In this document: positions 12,179 to 20,210 of the stretch, piece by piece
How positions within the stretch are numbered: position 1 is the first letter of the stretch
How the letters are laid out: each line of letters starts with the position of its first letter
Position numbers and translations under genes: made by a program
The notes under the pieces: generated by a model
Databases searched by the model: none
What the model was told of the DNA's origin: nothing
The model's input: only the letters and a program-made list of their open reading frames with translations
Origin: Nitrospira sp. KM1
Lineage (GTDB): Bacteria > Nitrospirota > Nitrospiria > Nitrospirales > Nitrospiraceae
Direction of reading: 5' to 3'
Length of the DNA: 64,000 nt
Assembly: GCF_011405515.1 (NCBI RefSeq)
Contig: NZ_AP022671.1
Location: 3,038,001 to 3,102,000, forward strand

Positions 12179-13009
12179 CTATACAAACTTATCGGACTCA
12201 ATGCCACCGGTCCGATGTGAGGCCAATGGCGGAAAGATTCTCAGCCATAGGAGGACCGTCGGAATGAGGAAGGTCAATATCCCAGCGACTGCCAGCAGAG
12301 TTTCACCGATCCAGAACGTGACGGCAAGGTTGAAGGTCAGGACGCCATAATACAGGCCGGCTCCCAACAGCAGGCGAGGCGTCATAGAGGGAGACGAGGG
12401 CTGTGGAGGAAGACCACGGTCCAGTGGAAAATAGCAGAGCAATGACAGAACGCCCACCGTGATCCAGCCGAGATAGTTGGCGATCGGCACGCCGAAATGA
12501 ACACCCGGATCCGGATAGTAGTAGATCTTTCCGAGAAACCAGCGATCGCCCCGCAGCGCCACCGGATCGATGACGGTGTCGATACCTGCAAAAAACAAGG
12601 CGGTGAGGACAAGTGTCTGCCAAGAGGTTCGGGTGTGGAGATCCATGGTGATTCGTGCCGGCCCGATCTCTCGTTCCCGGTTGGTCGTGATCGGCAGGAG
12701 AAACGTCAGCGCCATGCAGTATGCGGCATACAGCAGAAAACTGAAGGACAGAGAGTCGATGAAGGGAATGTTCGACAGGTAGAGCTCTTGCCCCACGGTC
12801 GATCCATTATAGTGGTACCACCCGAAGGGTATGCCGGTCCGGGTGGAGCTGTATTCACAGATGAATGCGGTGATCCAGCTGACGAGCCAGAATCTCCAGG
12901 TTCGCGGCCAGCCGATCAATCGGATTGCAGAGAAGAGAAAAGCGGCCAGAAACACAAATACATATGGACGAAAGACGATGGTGCCGAGGAACAGCAAAAA
13001 GACATCCAT
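12179..13009 (-). CDS. Carotenoid biosynthesis membrane protein, CruF-like (DUF422)
   Basis: 276 aa integral membrane protein with about seven hydrophobic segments. Signature elements of the CruF / bisanhydrobacterioruberin hydratase family are present: FGWYHYNG, an acidic motif GIDTVIDPVALRGDRW (about residues 142-157), and GVPIANYLGWI. The family hydrates the psi-end group of carotenoids at the 1',2' position. The ATG at 13009 is preferred over a TTG two codons upstream. It sits behind ispA and hpnA, consistent with isoprenoid metabolism. No carotenoid desaturase or synthase is in the window, so the final product is unknown. Confidence 0.8.
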   Translation of the reverse strand: MDVFLLFLGTIVFRPYVFVFLAAFLFSAIRLIGWPRTWRFWLVSWITAFICEYSSTRTGIPFGWYHYNGSTVGQELYLSNIPFIDSLSFSFLLYAAYCMALTFLLPITTNREREIGPARITMDLHTRTSWQTLVLTALFFAGIDTVIDPVALRGDRWFLGKIYYYPDPGVHFGVPIANYLGWITVGVLSLLCYFPLDRGLPPQPSSPSMTPRLLLGAGLYYGVLTFNLAVTFWIGETLLAVAGILTFLIPTVLLWLRIFPPLASHRTGGIESDKFV

Positions 13010-13040
13010 CAGCAATCCGGTCGACCGATGGCCCGCATGG

Positions 13041-14024
13041 TCAGGCGTATCCGTGCGACCTGAACCATCGCACGGCTTTTCCCAGGGCGACTTCGGGAGG
13101 AGTCTGCGGTAATCCGAGCTCGCGGATGGCTTTGCTGCAGTCGTAGTGCATTTTGTACTTCGCCATTTTCACGCCTTCGAGCGGGATGCGCGGCGGTTGG
13201 CCCGTCAGGTGTGCGATCCACTCGTTGGCATAGGCCAGCGGAAGTATCGCCAGTCTGGGAAGCTTGATCGTCGGGGCCCGAACTCCCGTGAGCCGGCTGA
13301 GCACCTCAAACACCTCATGCAACATGAGGTTGGCATTTCCGAGGATGTATCGTTCACCAATCCGTCCCTTGTGCATGGCCAACAGGTGTCCGGCTGCGAC
13401 ATCGTCAACGTCGACGATATTCATGCCGGTTTCGATGTAGGCCGGCATCCGGCCTTTCATGAAATCCACAATGACCTGACCCGTAGGCGTCGGTTTTACG
13501 TCGCCTTCACCCACCGGAGCGCTGGGGTTGACGATCACGACCGGGAATCCGTCGCGGGCCATCTTGAGAACTTCCTGCTCGGCAAGATACTTGGATCGTT
13601 TGTAATGACCCGCCATTTGATCGAGCGATACGGGCGTCTCCTCGGTGCCCACGCCTCCGCCGGGGGGCAGTCCGATCGCTCCAATAGTGCTGCAATACAC
13701 CGTGCGTTCCAAGTCAAGTGATCGTGCGGCCTCAAGCAGATTTCGCGTGCCGGTGACGTTGATCTCGTAAAAAATAGACGGATCCTTCGCCCACAGCGCG
13801 TAGTGAGCAGCCACGTGATACAACTGCCGGCATCCGCGTAATGCGGCTCGAAGCGAAGACGGGTCCCGAAGGTCTCCCGGCACCCGTTCCACCGACGCAC
13901 CGTCCAAGTTGTGAAAGTCGGAGTCGGAACGCGCCATCACACGGACGTCGGTTCCCGCCCGTGAAAGCGCCCGCGCAACCGCACCCCCAACGAATCCGGT
14001 GGCTCCTGTGACAAGTACCTTCAT
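13041..14024 (-). CDS. hpnA: Hopanoid-associated sugar epimerase HpnA
   Basis: 327 aa extended short-chain dehydrogenase. The NAD(P)-binding motif is VTGATGFVGG (residues 4-13), the catalytic Tyr-x3-Lys is in HYKRSKYLAEQE, and the segment HVAAHYALWAKDP is characteristic of HpnA proteins found in hopanoid gene clusters. Its exact substrate is unproven; the family is linked to modification of the hopanoid side chain. The neighbours ispA and the cruF-like gene support an isoprenoid role. No squalene-hopene cyclase is in the window. Confidence 0.88.
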   Translation of the reverse strand: MKVLVTGATGFVGGAVARALSRAGTDVRVMARSDSDFHNLDGASVERVPGDLRDPSSLRAALRGCRQLYHVAAHYALWAKDPSIFYEINVTGTRNLLEAARSLDLERTVYCSTIGAIGLPPGGGVGTEETPVSLDQMAGHYKRSKYLAEQEVLKMARDGFPVVIVNPSAPVGEGDVKPTPTGQVIVDFMKGRMPAYIETGMNIVDVDDVAAGHLLAMHKGRIGERYILGNANLMLHEVFEVLSRLTGVRAPTIKLPRLAILPLAYANEWIAHLTGQPPRIPLEGVKMAKYKMHYDCSKAIRELGLPQTPPEVALGKAVRWFRSHGYA

Positions 14025-14126
14025 AGGTGGTCGTCGCCGAGTGTGTTATGCGGCATCGCAGTGTGGCGGGACATGCGCTGCGACGATGGGCGCGATGAAC
14101 GAGAAGACGCCGTCTGCGAAGGGCCG

Positions 14127-15017
14127 TCAATTTTTCCGCGAAGTGATATATCGGGCGATGTCGCGAAGCGCGTCAGCCGAGGTTCCGAACGCATGCAGTC
14201 GGTCAATCGCCCGCGTCACGCACTCGTCCGCGAGCCGTTTTGCCCCCTCTACACCATAGAATGCCGGGTAGGTCTTCTTGCCCCGCTCCGCATCGGTATT
14301 GGGATTCTTCCCCAGCTCCTCGCGAGTCCCCGTGACGTTCAGCACGTCGTCGGCTATTTGAAACGCCAGTCCAATATCCTCGGCATAGCCGGTCACATCG
14401 TCCAATTGTCGGTCAGTGGCCCCTGCCGCGATCGCGCCCATCCGCACTGCCGCTCGTATCAGCATGCCGGTTTTATGCTTATGGATATTTTGAAGGGTGG
14501 GAAGGTCGATGTCGCGATGCTCGGCTTCGATGTCCAGGACCTGCCCGGCCACCATTCCCAGATTGCCGGACCCGTGTGCCAATTCCTGAATCAAACGGAC
14601 CTGCCGCTCCGGCGGGCATCTTTTCATGAGATCGGGTCTGCTGCAAAGGTCAAACGCCAGCGTGAGGAGCGCATCGCCCGCAAGAATCGCCATCGCATCG
14701 CCGTAGACCTTGTGGTTGGTGGGTTTGCCGCGACGGAAGTCATCATTGTCCATTGCAGGAAGATCGTCGTGGATGAGGGAGTAGGTATGAATCAGCTCGA
14801 GTGAACAGGCCACGGCCATCAGTCCCGGAGGCGATGAGCCCACCGCCTCGGCGGTCGCGATGGCCAGAATCGGGCGGATGCGTTTGCCGCCCGCCATCAG
14901 ACTATACCGCATGCTCTCGTGCAAGGTGAGCGGGTGCACGGCGGCCGCGGGCGCCACGTGATCCAGGAAATGATCGACCTCAAGCCGTTTCAGTTCGAGA
15001 TAGTCCTTGATGTTCAT
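14127..15017 (-). CDS. ispA: (2E,6E)-farnesyl / geranylgeranyl diphosphate synthase
   Basis: 296 aa trans-prenyl diphosphate synthase. It condenses isopentenyl diphosphate with allylic diphosphates to give C15 or C20 precursors. First Asp-rich motif DDLPAMDND (Asp84, Asp85, Asp90) with the two-residue insert of bacterial enzymes, substrate segment GGKRIRP at 43-49, and second Asp-rich region QIADDVLN near residue 225. The two residues before the first motif give little steric block, so C15 versus C20 product is uncertain. It is the first gene of the minus-strand isoprenoid run. Confidence 0.92.
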   Translation of the reverse strand: MNIKDYLELKRLEVDHFLDHVAPAAAVHPLTLHESMRYSLMAGGKRIRPILAIATAEAVGSSPPGLMAVACSLELIHTYSLIHDDLPAMDNDDFRRGKPTNHKVYGDAMAILAGDALLTLAFDLCSRPDLMKRCPPERQVRLIQELAHGSGNLGMVAGQVLDIEAEHRDIDLPTLQNIHKHKTGMLIRAAVRMGAIAAGATDRQLDDVTGYAEDIGLAFQIADDVLNVTGTREELGKNPNTDAERGKKTYPAFYGVEGAKRLADECVTRAIDRLHAFGTSADALRDIARYITSRKN

Positions 15018-16784: not shown

Positions 16785-17702
16785 ATGAATACTGCGCACT
16801 CTCAAACCGCCGGTGCGGTTTCTGAGCGTTCCTGGATGGATCTGTTTCGGTATTGGGATGCCATTCCCTTTCTTGCCATCCATGTGTTGTGTTTGTTCGC
16901 GATTCAGACCGGTGTCCGATGGGAGTGGGTGGGGCTCGCCATCGGGAGTTACTACGTGAGGATGGTCGGTGTGACAGCCGGCTACCATCGATACTTTTCA
17001 CACCGCTCATTCAAGACCGGACGTGTGTTCCAGTTCTTGCTGGCGTTTGTCGCCATGACATCGGCTCAAAAGGGGGTCTTGTGGTGGGCGGCCCACCACC
17101 GGCATCACCACAAGTATTCCGATCGCGAAGAGGATTTCCATTCGCCGTTGCAGCGAGGATTTTGGTTCTCGCACGTCGGCTGGATCCTTTCGGAGGACCA
17201 TGTCCGGACGGACTTGACCTTGGTCAAAGACCTGAAGCGCTATCCGGAACTCCAGTTTCTCGACCGCTTCTATTTCATCCCTCCGCTGCTCTACGCGGGG
17301 GGGATGTATGTGTTCTGGGGATTCCCTGGCCTGGTCTGGGGCTTTTTCATCTCGACCACCGCTCTCTATCATTGCACGTTCTTCATCAATTCGTTGACTC
17401 ATCTGGTCGGTACAGTCCGGTACCGGTCTGGTGACGGGAGCAGAAACAATGTCGTCCTGGCCATCCTCTGTTGTGGCGAAGGGTGGCACAACAACCATCA
17501 CCACTATCAATCGACGGCCAATCAAGGATGGTTTTGGTGGGAGGTGGATTTTTCCTATTACGTGTTGATCGTCCTTTCATGGCTGGGTCTTGTGTGGGAT
17601 TTGCGCACGCCCCCACCTTACATCAGGGCCGCGACCATTGCGGCCGAGTCACTTGCTCAATCTCAATCCCTCGACCGGCGTAAGCCGATCGTTCCATGCT
17701 AG
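16785..17702 (+). CDS. Membrane fatty acid (acyl-CoA type) desaturase
   Basis: 305 aa. The three histidine clusters of the di-iron desaturases are present: HRYFSH, HHRHHHKYS and GEGWHNNHHHYQ, with hydrophobic pairs between them giving four transmembrane segments. It introduces a cis double bond into an acyl chain. The ATG at 16785 (GAGG upstream) begins a sequence that fits the family; longer in-frame versions extend into noncoding-looking DNA. The next two genes are a Cfa-like methyltransferase and an FAD reductase, so its product is probably the unsaturated substrate for methylation. Regiospecificity cannot be read from sequence. Confidence 0.9.
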   Translation: MNTAHSQTAGAVSERSWMDLFRYWDAIPFLAIHVLCLFAIQTGVRWEWVGLAIGSYYVRMVGVTAGYHRYFSHRSFKTGRVFQFLLAFVAMTSAQKGVLWWAAHHRHHHKYSDREEDFHSPLQRGFWFSHVGWILSEDHVRTDLTLVKDLKRYPELQFLDRFYFIPPLLYAGGMYVFWGFPGLVWGFFISTTALYHCTFFINSLTHLVGTVRYRSGDGSRNNVVLAILCCGEGWHNNHHHYQSTANQGWFWWEVDFSYYVLIVLSWLGLVWDLRTPPPYIRAATIAAESLAQSQSLDRRKPIVPC

Positions 17703-17754
17703 CCTGAGAGTTCTGGGCCGGTACAGACCGGCCGCCATCCGAGGGATCACCATC

Positions 17755-18864
17755 ATGAAACACAAACAAGTCATCGAACAATTGCTTGGAAAAGCCAGGG
17801 TGCGGATCAACGGCATGGAGCCCGGCGACATCCTGGTGCACAACGACAAGTTTTACGGCCGCGTTCTGGCCGAGGGATCGTTGGGCTTGGGCGAGTCTTA
17901 CATGGACGGGTGGTGGGACGCTGGACGCCTGGATGAATTTTTTTCGAAGTTCCACAGCGTGCCGCTGGATCAGGCCGTGGTCGACAAGCATTTGGTCATC
18001 AACGCGCTGAAGGCACGCTTGTTCAATATGCAGAACAAGCGGCTCTCGAAGAGAGTCGCTCAGCAGCATTACGATTTGGACAGCGCATTCTACGAAAAGA
18101 TGCTGGGTCCGCGGATGCAGTACACCTGCGCCTATTGGAAACGGGCGCAGGACCTGGAGGCCGCGCAGGAACACAAGCTGGACCTGATCTGCAGGAAGTT
18201 GCGCCTTCAAAAAGGTGACCGGGTGCTTGAACTGGGATGCGGTTGGGGAGGGTTTGCCCACTATGCCGCGACGACATATGGATGCCACGTGACCGCATAC
18301 AACATCTCGGCCCAGCAGGTTGCGTACGCCCGTCAATGGTGCAAAGGGCTTCCCGTCGAGATCGTCCACGGGGACTACCGGGAGGCTCGCGGCGAATTCG
18401 ACAAAGTCGCGGCCATCGGTCTGTGCGAGCATGTCGGATACAAGAACTATCGCACGCTGATGCAGACCATTCACCGCTCGCTCAAGCGACGGGGACTCTG
18501 TCTGGTGCATACGATCGGGAACAACGCGTCGGTTTCGACAGCCGATCCCTGGTTCGACAAGTATATTTTCCCGGGCGGCATGCTGCCCTCCGTCGCGCAA
18601 TTGAGTGCGGCGATGGATGATCTCCTGGTGATGGAGGATTGGCACAATTTCGGTCCGGACTATGACCGGACGCTGGTGGCCTGGCAGGACAACGTCGACC
18701 GCCACTGGGAGGAATTGAAGACGTCCTTCGACGAGCGGTTCTACCGGACGTGGCGCTACTACCTGCTGTCCTTGGCTGGCGCATTCCGCGCCCGCCGGAT
18801 CCATTTGTGGCAGATCGTGATGTCGAAGCAGGGGGTGCTCGGCGGTTACGAGCCGGTGCGATAA
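17755..18864 (+). CDS. Cyclopropane-fatty-acyl-phospholipid synthase family methyltransferase
   Basis: 369 aa, slightly shorter than E. coli Cfa (382 aa). An N-terminal lipid-binding domain (about 1-95) precedes the SAM-dependent methyltransferase with motif RVLELGCGWGGFAHYAA (about residues 155-171). The catalytic-site segment AAIGLCEHVGYKNY and HTIGNN match the Cfa family. It transfers a methyl group from S-adenosylmethionine to the double bond of a phospholipid acyl chain. Because it is followed 5 nt later by an FAD oxidoreductase, it may work like actinobacterial TmsB/UmaA-type enzymes that make a methylene-branched intermediate rather than a cyclopropane ring. Start chosen at 17755; the ORF is open further upstream but reads as noncoding. 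Confidence 0.88.
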   Translation: MKHKQVIEQLLGKARVRINGMEPGDILVHNDKFYGRVLAEGSLGLGESYMDGWWDAGRLDEFFSKFHSVPLDQAVVDKHLVINALKARLFNMQNKRLSKRVAQQHYDLDSAFYEKMLGPRMQYTCAYWKRAQDLEAAQEHKLDLICRKLRLQKGDRVLELGCGWGGFAHYAATTYGCHVTAYNISAQQVAYARQWCKGLPVEIVHGDYREARGEFDKVAAIGLCEHVGYKNYRTLMQTIHRSLKRRGLCLVHTIGNNASVSTADPWFDKYIFPGGMLPSVAQLSAAMDDLLVMEDWHNFGPDYDRTLVAWQDNVDRHWEELKTSFDERFYRTWRYYLLSLAGAFRARRIHLWQIVMSKQGVLGGYEPVR

Positions 18865-18869
18865 CCCAC

Positions 18870-20210
18870 ATGATAGCGTTTGAAGCGTATGCCGAAAAGC
18901 GTGCGCGAGCGATTGCGGATGCACGGAACGCCCATATCGGTCCTCTGACCCTGGACAAGCCTACCTCCAATCTATTCCGGCACCGTCCTTCAGACAGAGG
19001 ACACCGTCTCGACCTGCGCGGGTTTAACCATGTGATTCGTGTCGACGAAGCAGCCAGGACGGCGGACGTCGAGGCATTGACGACCTATGATGATCTGGTG
19101 AGGGAAACACTGCGGTTCAATTTGATGCCGGCTGTCGTACCGCAGCTCAAGTCGATCACGATCGGAGGAGCGATCGCCGGCATCGGCATCGAGTCGACTT
19201 CGTTCAAATACGGTTTCGTGCACGAGACCGTGCGGGAGCTCGAGGTGCTGCTCCCCGGAGGAACGGTCGCGGTCGCCGACCGCGAAAACGAATATCGCGA
19301 TCTCTTTTTCGGATTTCCCAATTCTTACGGAACGCTGGGATACGCGCTCCGCGTCGTCATTGAACTGGTGCCGGTGAAGCCGTTCGTGCGCCTCACGCAC
19401 CGTCGGTATGCCGATCCGGCTCAGTATTTTGAAACCATGTCGCAGGTTTGCCGCGATGGCGCCGTGGATTTCGTGGACGGCACCATGTTCGACGGGAGGA
19501 CCTTCTATCTGACCACCGGAGAGTTCGTTGATCAGGCGGAATGGCTCAGCGACTACACGTATCTGCAGATGTACTACCGGTCAATCACGGAACGGACCAC
19601 CGACTACCTGACCGTGCATGACTACCTCTGGCGTTGGGACACCGATTGGTTCTGGTGTTCCAAACACTTCCTGCTGCACTATTCCCTGATGCGAAGGCTC
19701 TGGGGCAAGCAGAGACTGAACTCGACGGTGTACTGGAGCGTCTGGAAGCGTGCGCACGCCTCCCGCGTGGCACAACTGGCCTTGGGAGTGCTTCAAGGCC
19801 GGCAGGAAGCCGTCATCCAAGACGTCGAGATTCCGATTGAAGAGGCGGGGCGGTTTGCAACATTCTTCAATGAGGCGATCGGCATAAAACCGGTTTGGCT
19901 GTGTCCGGTCGCCGCCCGCGATCCCTCGGTCTCCTATACGCTGTACCCCATGGATTCACGCAGACTCTATGTGAATTTCGGTTTCTGGGACACGGTGAAG
20001 AGCGCGCATGGCGATGGGCACTACAATCGCATGATCGAAGCAACCGTCCGCGAATTAAAAGGCCACAAATCACTGTATTCCAATTCATTCTATTCAAGAG
20101 ACGAGTTCGACCGGCTGTACAACGGTCTTCAGTATGGGATGCTCAAGGAGCGCTATGATCCTCGAGGACAGTTCAAGGGTTTGTATGAAAAATGTGTGCT
20201 CAAGCAATAG
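18870..20210 (+). CDS. FAD-binding oxidoreductase, UfaA1/TmsA-like (DHCR24-like)
   Basis: 446 aa. FAD_binding_4 (PCMH-type) domain at the N-terminus: LDLRGFNHVIRVDEAARTAD, VPQLKSITIGGAIAGIGIES, the latter carrying the FAD-pyrophosphate loop. The C-terminal half is rich in aromatic residues, as in the sterol reductase DHCR24 family. In mycobacteria the homologue next to a Cfa-like methyltransferase reduces the 10-methylene group to the methyl branch of tuberculostearic acid. The start at 18870 lies 5 nt after the methyltransferase stop, so the two are co-translated. The assigned lipid role is inferred from this pairing. Confidence 0.85.
   Translation: MIAFEAYAEKRARAIADARNAHIGPLTLDKPTSNLFRHRPSDRGHRLDLRGFNHVIRVDEAARTADVEALTTYDDLVRETLRFNLMPAVVPQLKSITIGGAIAGIGIESTSFKYGFVHETVRELEVLLPGGTVAVADRENEYRDLFFGFPNSYGTLGYALRVVIELVPVKPFVRLTHRRYADPAQYFETMSQVCRDGAVDFVDGTMFDGRTFYLTTGEFVDQAEWLSDYTYLQMYYRSITERTTDYLTVHDYLWRWDTDWFWCSKHFLLHYSLMRRLWGKQRLNSTVYWSVWKRAHASRVAQLALGVLQGRQEAVIQDVEIPIEEAGRFATFFNEAIGIKPVWLCPVAARDPSVSYTLYPMDSRRLYVNFGFWDTVKSAHGDGHYNRMIEATVRELKGHKSLYSNSFYSRDEFDRLYNGLQYGMLKERYDPRGQFKGLYEKCVLKQ

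Follow-up and report, generated by a model that had tools for sequence, protein, structure and literature searches.

Known routes to mid-chain methyl branches and the KM1 cluster

In actinobacteria, 10-methylstearate (tuberculostearate) is formed from oleate by the products of bfaAB (tmsAB). BfaB methylates the far carbon of the cis-9 bond, leading to the 10-methyl branch, and BfaA catalyses the NADPH-dependent reduction of 10-methylene to 10-methyl acyl chains (PMC5660069, PMC7791843); the Cfa of the MSMEG_6283-6284 pair is required for tuberculostearate (PMC10127668). Here we describe three genes in a 64,000-nucleotide stretch ("the window", to whose first letter all coordinates refer) of the genome of the nitrite oxidiser Nitrospira sp. 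KM1, a single contig of 4,509,223 bp (size also in PMC7522533 Table 2). These genes encode a desaturase, a Cfa-family methyltransferase and a flavin adenine dinucleotide (FAD) enzyme of the BfaA family, and we consider it likely that this operon serves to make a saturated membrane fatty acid branched by a methyl group in mid-chain, which would make it a bfa-type system with two departures, a methyltransferase of E. coli type and a desaturase of its own. The features are the following:

16785..17702, + strand: membrane fatty-acid desaturase, SCD/DesC type (PF00487 FA_desaturase, 59 bits)
17755..18864, + strand: Cfa-family S-adenosylmethionine (SAM)-dependent methyltransferase of the E. coli (PRK11705) type, 369 amino acids (CMAS PF02353, 254 bits; NCBIfam PRK11705, 533.6 bits)
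18424..18426, + strand: codon of Cys224, beside the catalytic Glu225 and equivalent to E. coli F238 (alignment with E. coli Cfa and solved synthases)
18870..20210, + strand: BfaA-family FAD oxidoreductase, putative NADPH-dependent methylene-fatty-acyl reductase, 446 amino acids (FAD_binding_4 PF01565, 56 bits)
19629..19661, + strand: FAD-enzyme motif WRWDTDWFWCS, unchanged across all 53 aligned family members, including actinobacterial BfaA homologues

As the first-pass annotation of this DNA had stated, the three genes are consecutive on the + strand, with coordinates and domain matches in agreement, and 5 nucleotides separate the Cfa stop codon (18862-18864) from the start of the FAD gene (18870). 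The same annotation had taken UmaA/UfaA1 as a model Cfa/FAD pair, but both are methyltransferases (PMC5660069), and the correct comparison is with BfaB/BfaA, formerly TmsB/TmsA. KM1 shares with bfaAB a homologous FAD reductase carrying the invariant motif, an adjacent Cfa-family methyltransferase with an intact bicarbonate site, and operon-like spacing. In contrast, the gene order is reversed (Cfa then FAD), the methyltransferase belongs to the E. coli Cfa clade and not to the BfaB clade, and the desaturase lies directly upstream, whereas among the actinobacterial loci only that of Amycolatopsis has one, 34% identical and ~600 nucleotides downstream.

Closer in arrangement are pairs from Proteobacteria (Variovorax, Thiobacillus, Zeimonas and others), for which we found no description in the literature, and in which a BfaA-family gene follows directly after Cfa, as in Nitrospira; their Cfa, however, is of a third clade with Leu at position 238 (E. 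coli numbering), and an adjacent desaturase was not found in them. The tmpBA genes for 10-methylpalmitate (Marinobacter, Thiohalospira and others) also place a Cfa-family methyltransferase before a flavoprotein and act on C16 chains, but TmpA is geranylgeranyl-reductase-like and not homologous to BfaA (PMC7791843), whereas the KM1 partner is of the FAD_binding_4/VAO type. Finally, in the Rhodobacter UfaM/UfaD/UfaO furan pathway a cis-11 chain is methylated at C11 with SAM, UfaM acting on the near-carboxyl carbon of cis-vaccenate to give 11Me-12t-18:1; this pathway adds unsaturation and O2 and, as described, is without a BfaA-type reductase.

Conservation of the three-gene row

In a profile search the FAD gene was found in 26 of 236 Nitrospirales genomes, belonging to 4 of 37 genera, and the cluster-type Cfa (71-85% identity) is present in 26 of 175 Nitrospiraceae. 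The two orthologues occur together in 25 Nitrospiraceae genomes; in one further genome the Cfa, at the edge of a contig, is without its partner (G171), and another contains only a truncated FAD gene (G099). The order desaturase-Cfa-FAD is preserved at 24 of the 26 Nitrospiraceae Cfa loci, where relatives 66-83% identical to the cluster desaturase lie immediately 5' of Cfa, and the Cfa-FAD gap is 4-6 nucleotides in most of 23 relative loci. Substitution rates between KM1 and N. japonica indicate purifying selection on all three genes, with non-synonymous (dN) and synonymous (dS) rates of 0.11 and 1.4 for Cfa, 0.19 and 1.25 for the FAD gene, and a dN of 0.10 with saturated dS for the desaturase. 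Given the recurrent order, the co-occurrence, the small gap and the purifying selection, the row is a maintained unit and not a product of chance.

The FAD enzyme belongs to the BfaA family

The FAD enzyme is 45-54% identical, over its full length (~416-446 aligned residues), to the FAD genes of actinobacterial bfaAB-type operons. Full-length matches of 44-50% were also found in plasmid records of Tsukamurella, Nocardia, Nonomuraea, Prescottella and Variovorax, each with a Cfa-family gene beside it, and a blind scan using one genome per species gave 80 BfaA-family loci (45-69% identity), at ~64 of which a Cfa-family gene adjoins the FAD gene. The FAD gene comes first in actinobacteria, whereas in Proteobacteria, Acidobacteria and Nitrospira it follows Cfa. 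The FAD-Cfa pair of Tsukamurella lies between recR/Rv3717-type amidase and dnaX, a setting that we take to be the place of MSMEG_6283-6284 in mycobacterial gene order.

An AlphaFold model of the FAD enzyme, built on 48 sequences with plasmid rows omitted, reached a predicted local distance difference test score (pLDDT) of 89.4 and has a VAO/PCMH fold (an earlier model from 16 sequences was poor, with a pLDDT of 67.5). It aligns with DprE1 over 359 residues (Z 28.9, root-mean-square deviation 3.2), and cytokinin dehydrogenases also match. A kinship with DHCR24, which had been suggested for this protein, was not confirmed: the matches in the Protein Data Bank are DprE1 and the cytokinin and galactonolactone dehydrogenases, although the absence of DHCR24 from this list proves nothing.

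Two further sets of loci were recorded for this family. The plasmid of Prescottella sp. R16 (L045, 1030-6655) carries two inverted FAD-Cfa pairs flanked by identical TetR and Rieske proteins, which is an apparent inverted duplication. FAD genes without a nearby Cfa, 47-53% identical to that of KM1, occur in Gammaproteobacteria and others (L056, L057, L059, L063-L065, L067, L085, L093, L097, L103, L107, L108 and L115).

The methyltransferase is of E. coli type

The cluster methyltransferase, METHYLTRANSFERASE, is the sole strong CMAS-family protein of the KM1 genome, the next match scoring 47 bits. A tree of 62 proteins places it in the E. coli-type clade and not among the BfaB proteins, and its identity to the BfaB clade is ~32-38%. 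It keeps the bicarbonate site of E. coli Cfa (C125, E225, H252, I254 and Y303, equivalent to C139, E239, H266, I268 and Y317), and this enzyme is also its nearest solved structure (397 bits, the second giving 168 bits). However, the KM1 protein has Cys in place of F238, is reductase-paired, and falls in a subclade (support 100/98) in which every Cfa is reductase-paired and whose members come from Nitrospira, Acidobacteria, Myxococcota and two contigs of metagenome-assembled genomes. The actinobacterial BfaB proteins form a separate clade (100/100), as do the proteobacterial reductase-paired Cfas (100/100), bar one long-branched Chromatiaceae sequence, and a further reductase-paired branch (L070, L095 and L104) is basal in the E. 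coli-type clade. In the comparison with BfaA/BfaB (TmsA/TmsB) that had been suggested for both proteins, kinship is thus borne out for the FAD enzyme, whereas the methyltransferase lies outside the BfaB clade.

In the tree of the FAD enzymes, the Nitrospira, actinobacterial and proteobacterial proteins each form their own group, and the acidobacterial and myxococcal ones stand apart from Nitrospira, unlike the corresponding Cfas. This conflict between the two trees indicates that partner exchange seems to have occurred. At least three distinct Cfa lineages have putative BfaA-type reductases as partners, which is new.

Some Cfa-FAD pairs were found on contigs labelled Magasanikbacteria, Woesearchaeota or Patescibacteria (L053, L055, L070 and L104); since such pairs are not expected in these lineages, misbinning is likely. 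A different Cfa subfamily, with EMIEAVG/EMFEAVG replacing GMFEHVG, was observed in N. defluvii (L194) and on proteobacterial plasmids (L241, L242, L243, L246 and L250), the plasmid loci being clusters of an amine-oxidase-type FAD oxidoreductase, DUF1365 and Cfa.

The desaturase and the surroundings of the cluster

The desaturase has the His boxes HRYFSH, HHRHH and HNNHH and is a cluster-specific paralogue, two other desaturases being encoded in the KM1 genome. It is ~47% identical to the desaturase common to all Nitrospira tested and ~50% identical to a cyanobacterial DesC1.

A gene 2.6 kb downstream of the cluster was found in 10 of 10 genomes tested. We rejected synteny as proof of cluster loss, because the cluster sits elsewhere in other genera. 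Further membrane-lipid genes lie 2-4 kb upstream on the - strand (window 12179-15017), namely those for a CruF-like carotenoid protein, a hopanoid-associated epimerase HpnA and a farnesyl diphosphate synthase.

Proposed pathway

Starting from the observed gene order and its conservation, the BfaA-family membership, the E. coli-type origin of the methyltransferase, its bicarbonate site and its non-aromatic residue 238, we infer the methylene intermediate, its reduction, the cofactor and the range of branch positions as follows. The desaturase would insert a cis double bond in a C16 or C18 acyl chain, and after its methylation the cation would not close to a cyclopropane but would undergo a hydride shift and be released with an exo-methylene group. 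Reduction of this methylene group to a methyl branch, with NADPH, would then fall to the BfaA-type flavoenzyme. A 10-methyl branch would arise from a C9 double bond, and an 11-methyl branch from a C10 double bond, or from a C11 one with UfaM-like regiochemistry. With a BfaA-family FAD enzyme and a trio conserved at 24 of 26 loci, the genes are best interpreted as serving the formation of a mid-chain methyl branch. The desaturate-methylate-reduce route of the first-pass annotation is supported as a pathway type by the BfaA homology and the conserved trio, but not in its assignment to 11-methyl-16:0, as N. moscoviensis is without these genes (see below).

Several observations weigh against this interpretation. 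The cluster Cfa exceeds the NCBIfam cut-off for cyclopropane synthases (400 bits for PRK11705) and is ~49-51% identical to E. coli-type Cfas, and a cyclopropane product is possible for it on these grounds. Two of the Nitrospiraceae loci (G010 and G148) are without an adjacent desaturase, and the rule on residue 238 presented in the following section has exceptions among unpaired enzymes, such as those of Leptolyngbya (V), Vibrio (L) and Mycolicibacterium (A). About 15 of the 80 BfaA-family loci, mostly in Gammaproteobacteria, have no Cfa neighbour; the BfaA-type reductase may therefore have other substrates, which cautions against equating one family with one function. In addition, a literature search for lipid profiles of KM1 and N. 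japonica did not find data for cluster-bearing Nitrospira.

Residue 238 in reductase-paired Cfas

Position 238, next to the catalytic Glu, is Phe in five solved cyclopropane synthases (6BQC, 7QOS, 5Z9O, 1TPY and 1KP9). Among the Cfas paired with a reductase, the 18 proteins of E. coli type have Cys (once Thr) there, all 13 actinobacterial BfaB have Thr, all 14 proteobacterial proteins have Leu and all three Cfas of a fourth paired group have Met, so that Phe is found in 0 of 48 reductase-paired enzymes versus 21 of 30 unpaired ones, the non-Phe residues of the latter being V, L, I, A and C. Fisher's test gives p ~3e-12 by sequence and ~0.006 by five paired lineages, values that are rough, since relatedness is ignored and the pattern was spotted before the test.

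The absence of Phe from all reductase-paired Cfas appears to be a new and testable candidate for a switch. As a lead, once the aromatic side chain at this position is lost, the cation may be more prone to leave as a methylene than to close the ring. It is tempting, if speculative, to go further and propose that an E. coli-type cyclopropane synthase became methylene-forming through loss of this Phe, independently of BfaB and TmpB, that the same loss took place in all Cfa lineages paired with a BfaA-type reductase, and that residue 238 is the switch between ring and methylene; we think this has a lesser chance of being correct. A plasmid of Streptomyces virginiae (NZ_CP108150.1; L237:898-3595) carries a triad with overlapping ends, encoding a desaturase, an F420H2-quinone-reductase-family protein (PF04075), which is a putative reductase different from that of KM1, and an E. 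coli-type Cfa in which Phe is retained at 238.

11-Methylhexadecanoate and N. moscoviensis

The most probable alternative, put forward in the first-pass annotation, is that 16:1 cis-11 is the substrate of the cluster and 11-methylhexadecanoate its product, so that Nitrospira would owe this marker lipid to it and KM1 too would make 11-methyl-16:0, which we regard as unlikely. Both acids are indeed Nitrospira lipids (PMC3660363), mid-chain methyl branches are the product class of this type of operon, BfaB of T. curvata also accepts 18:1 cis-11, and the action of UfaM on cis-vaccenate provides a precedent for an 11-methyl product. However, if a cis-11 chain were methylated with the regiochemistry of BfaB, a 12-methyl and not an 11-methyl acid would result. 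As an 11-methyl branch from a cis-11 bond needs methylation of the near-carboxyl carbon, as by UfaM, whereas BfaB takes the far one, the genes do not reveal which carbon would carry the branch in KM1.

The distribution of the genes also speaks against it. 11-Methyl-16:0 makes up >20% of the fatty acids of N. moscoviensis, in which it was discovered, and exceeds 20% in N. bockiana and N. calida as well (PMC3660363 Table 3); it is present at 0.8% in N. marina and is not a marker in N. defluvii (PMC3660363). Closed genomes of N. bockiana and N. calida are on record (PRJEB85292); the genome of N. moscoviensis M-1 (G147) is closed, with 4,589,485 bp, compared with 4,084,817 bp for N. japonica (G001; PMC7522533). 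In the N. moscoviensis genome a profile search did not find a BfaA homologue, nor were the cluster-type Cfa (best match 37%) and the cluster desaturase (best match 46-49%) found, the nearest desaturase being 88% identical to a second KM1 desaturase. The BfaA profile and the cluster-type Cfa also had no match in a genome of 4,317,083 bp (G034) that we take to be that of N. defluvii, a species without 11-methyl-16:0. A link to 11-methyl-16:0 by orthology was consequently rejected for N. moscoviensis, where other genes must make this acid, and there is no support for the cluster as the explanation of 11-methylhexadecanoate in Nitrospira. Likewise, N. moscoviensis and N. defluvii produce 16:1 cis-11 (PMC3660363) without the cluster desaturase, which had been proposed as the source of this acid in Nitrospira; the specificity of the enzyme may therefore be other than cis-11. 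An 11-methyl route for KM1 alone is possible.

The two Cfas encoded by N. moscoviensis are of a different type, and their residue 238 is C or V. One of them, a 432-residue protein (GMCEHVG), is encoded on the - strand together with a desaturase and a 301-residue CMAS-family methyltransferase (L193:5674-9029; G147:C1 ~4143673-4147028), and is a candidate for the 11-methyl-16:0 of this species. Orthologues of this Cfa type (53-56%) are present in four other genomes (G017, G071, G076 and G026), none with the BfaA cluster, and were not found in six cluster-bearing genomes tested nor in N. defluvii. The two are thus mutually exclusive in 15 genomes tested, which fits two alternative routes. A TmpA-like reductase (TIGR02032) was sought in N. 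moscoviensis, with nothing above the cut-off, whereas N. defluvii and G101 have one, and in a search for a reductase among the neighbours of the second-type Cfa, none was conserved apart from the Cfa itself.

Other possible products

Still less probable, in our view, is that the cluster Cfa is an ordinary cyclopropane synthase and the FAD enzyme acts elsewhere, for example on a lipid-linked sugar like DprE1. The PRK11705 equivalog score above the cut-off, the placement in the E. coli-type clade and the solved structures closest in fold to the FAD enzyme (DprE1, cytokinin dehydrogenase and galactonolactone dehydrogenase) would agree with this, but the FAD enzyme is 45-54% identical to BfaA versus ~16% to DprE1, F238 is lost, and the pairing with Cfa recurs across several phyla. 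Moreover, cyclopropane acids are no marker in any Nitrospira species of PMC3660363, which are, as far as known, without the cluster, and 19:0 cyclo was reported there solely in two enrichment cultures (3.1% and 0.6%). An unsaturated methyl acid or furan precursor, as with UfaM/UfaD and with the FAD enzyme acting in oxidation, is very improbable, since even though VAO-fold enzymes are mostly oxidases or dehydrogenases and UfaM acts on cis-11 chains, the FAD enzyme has methylene reductases as its close homologues and an SCD-type desaturase lies upstream of the methyltransferase.

Significance

Mid-chain methyl-branched acids serve as lipid markers of nitrifiers, and in the literature we found no gene named for them in Nitrospira. 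The cluster described here is a candidate operon for these acids, and since other genes must serve in N. moscoviensis, markers of one kind may have arisen in two ways. That BfaA-type reductases are repeatedly found with separate Cfa lineages, each without the same Phe, makes it testable how the Cfa family is directed towards a cyclopropane ring or towards a methylene and methyl branch.

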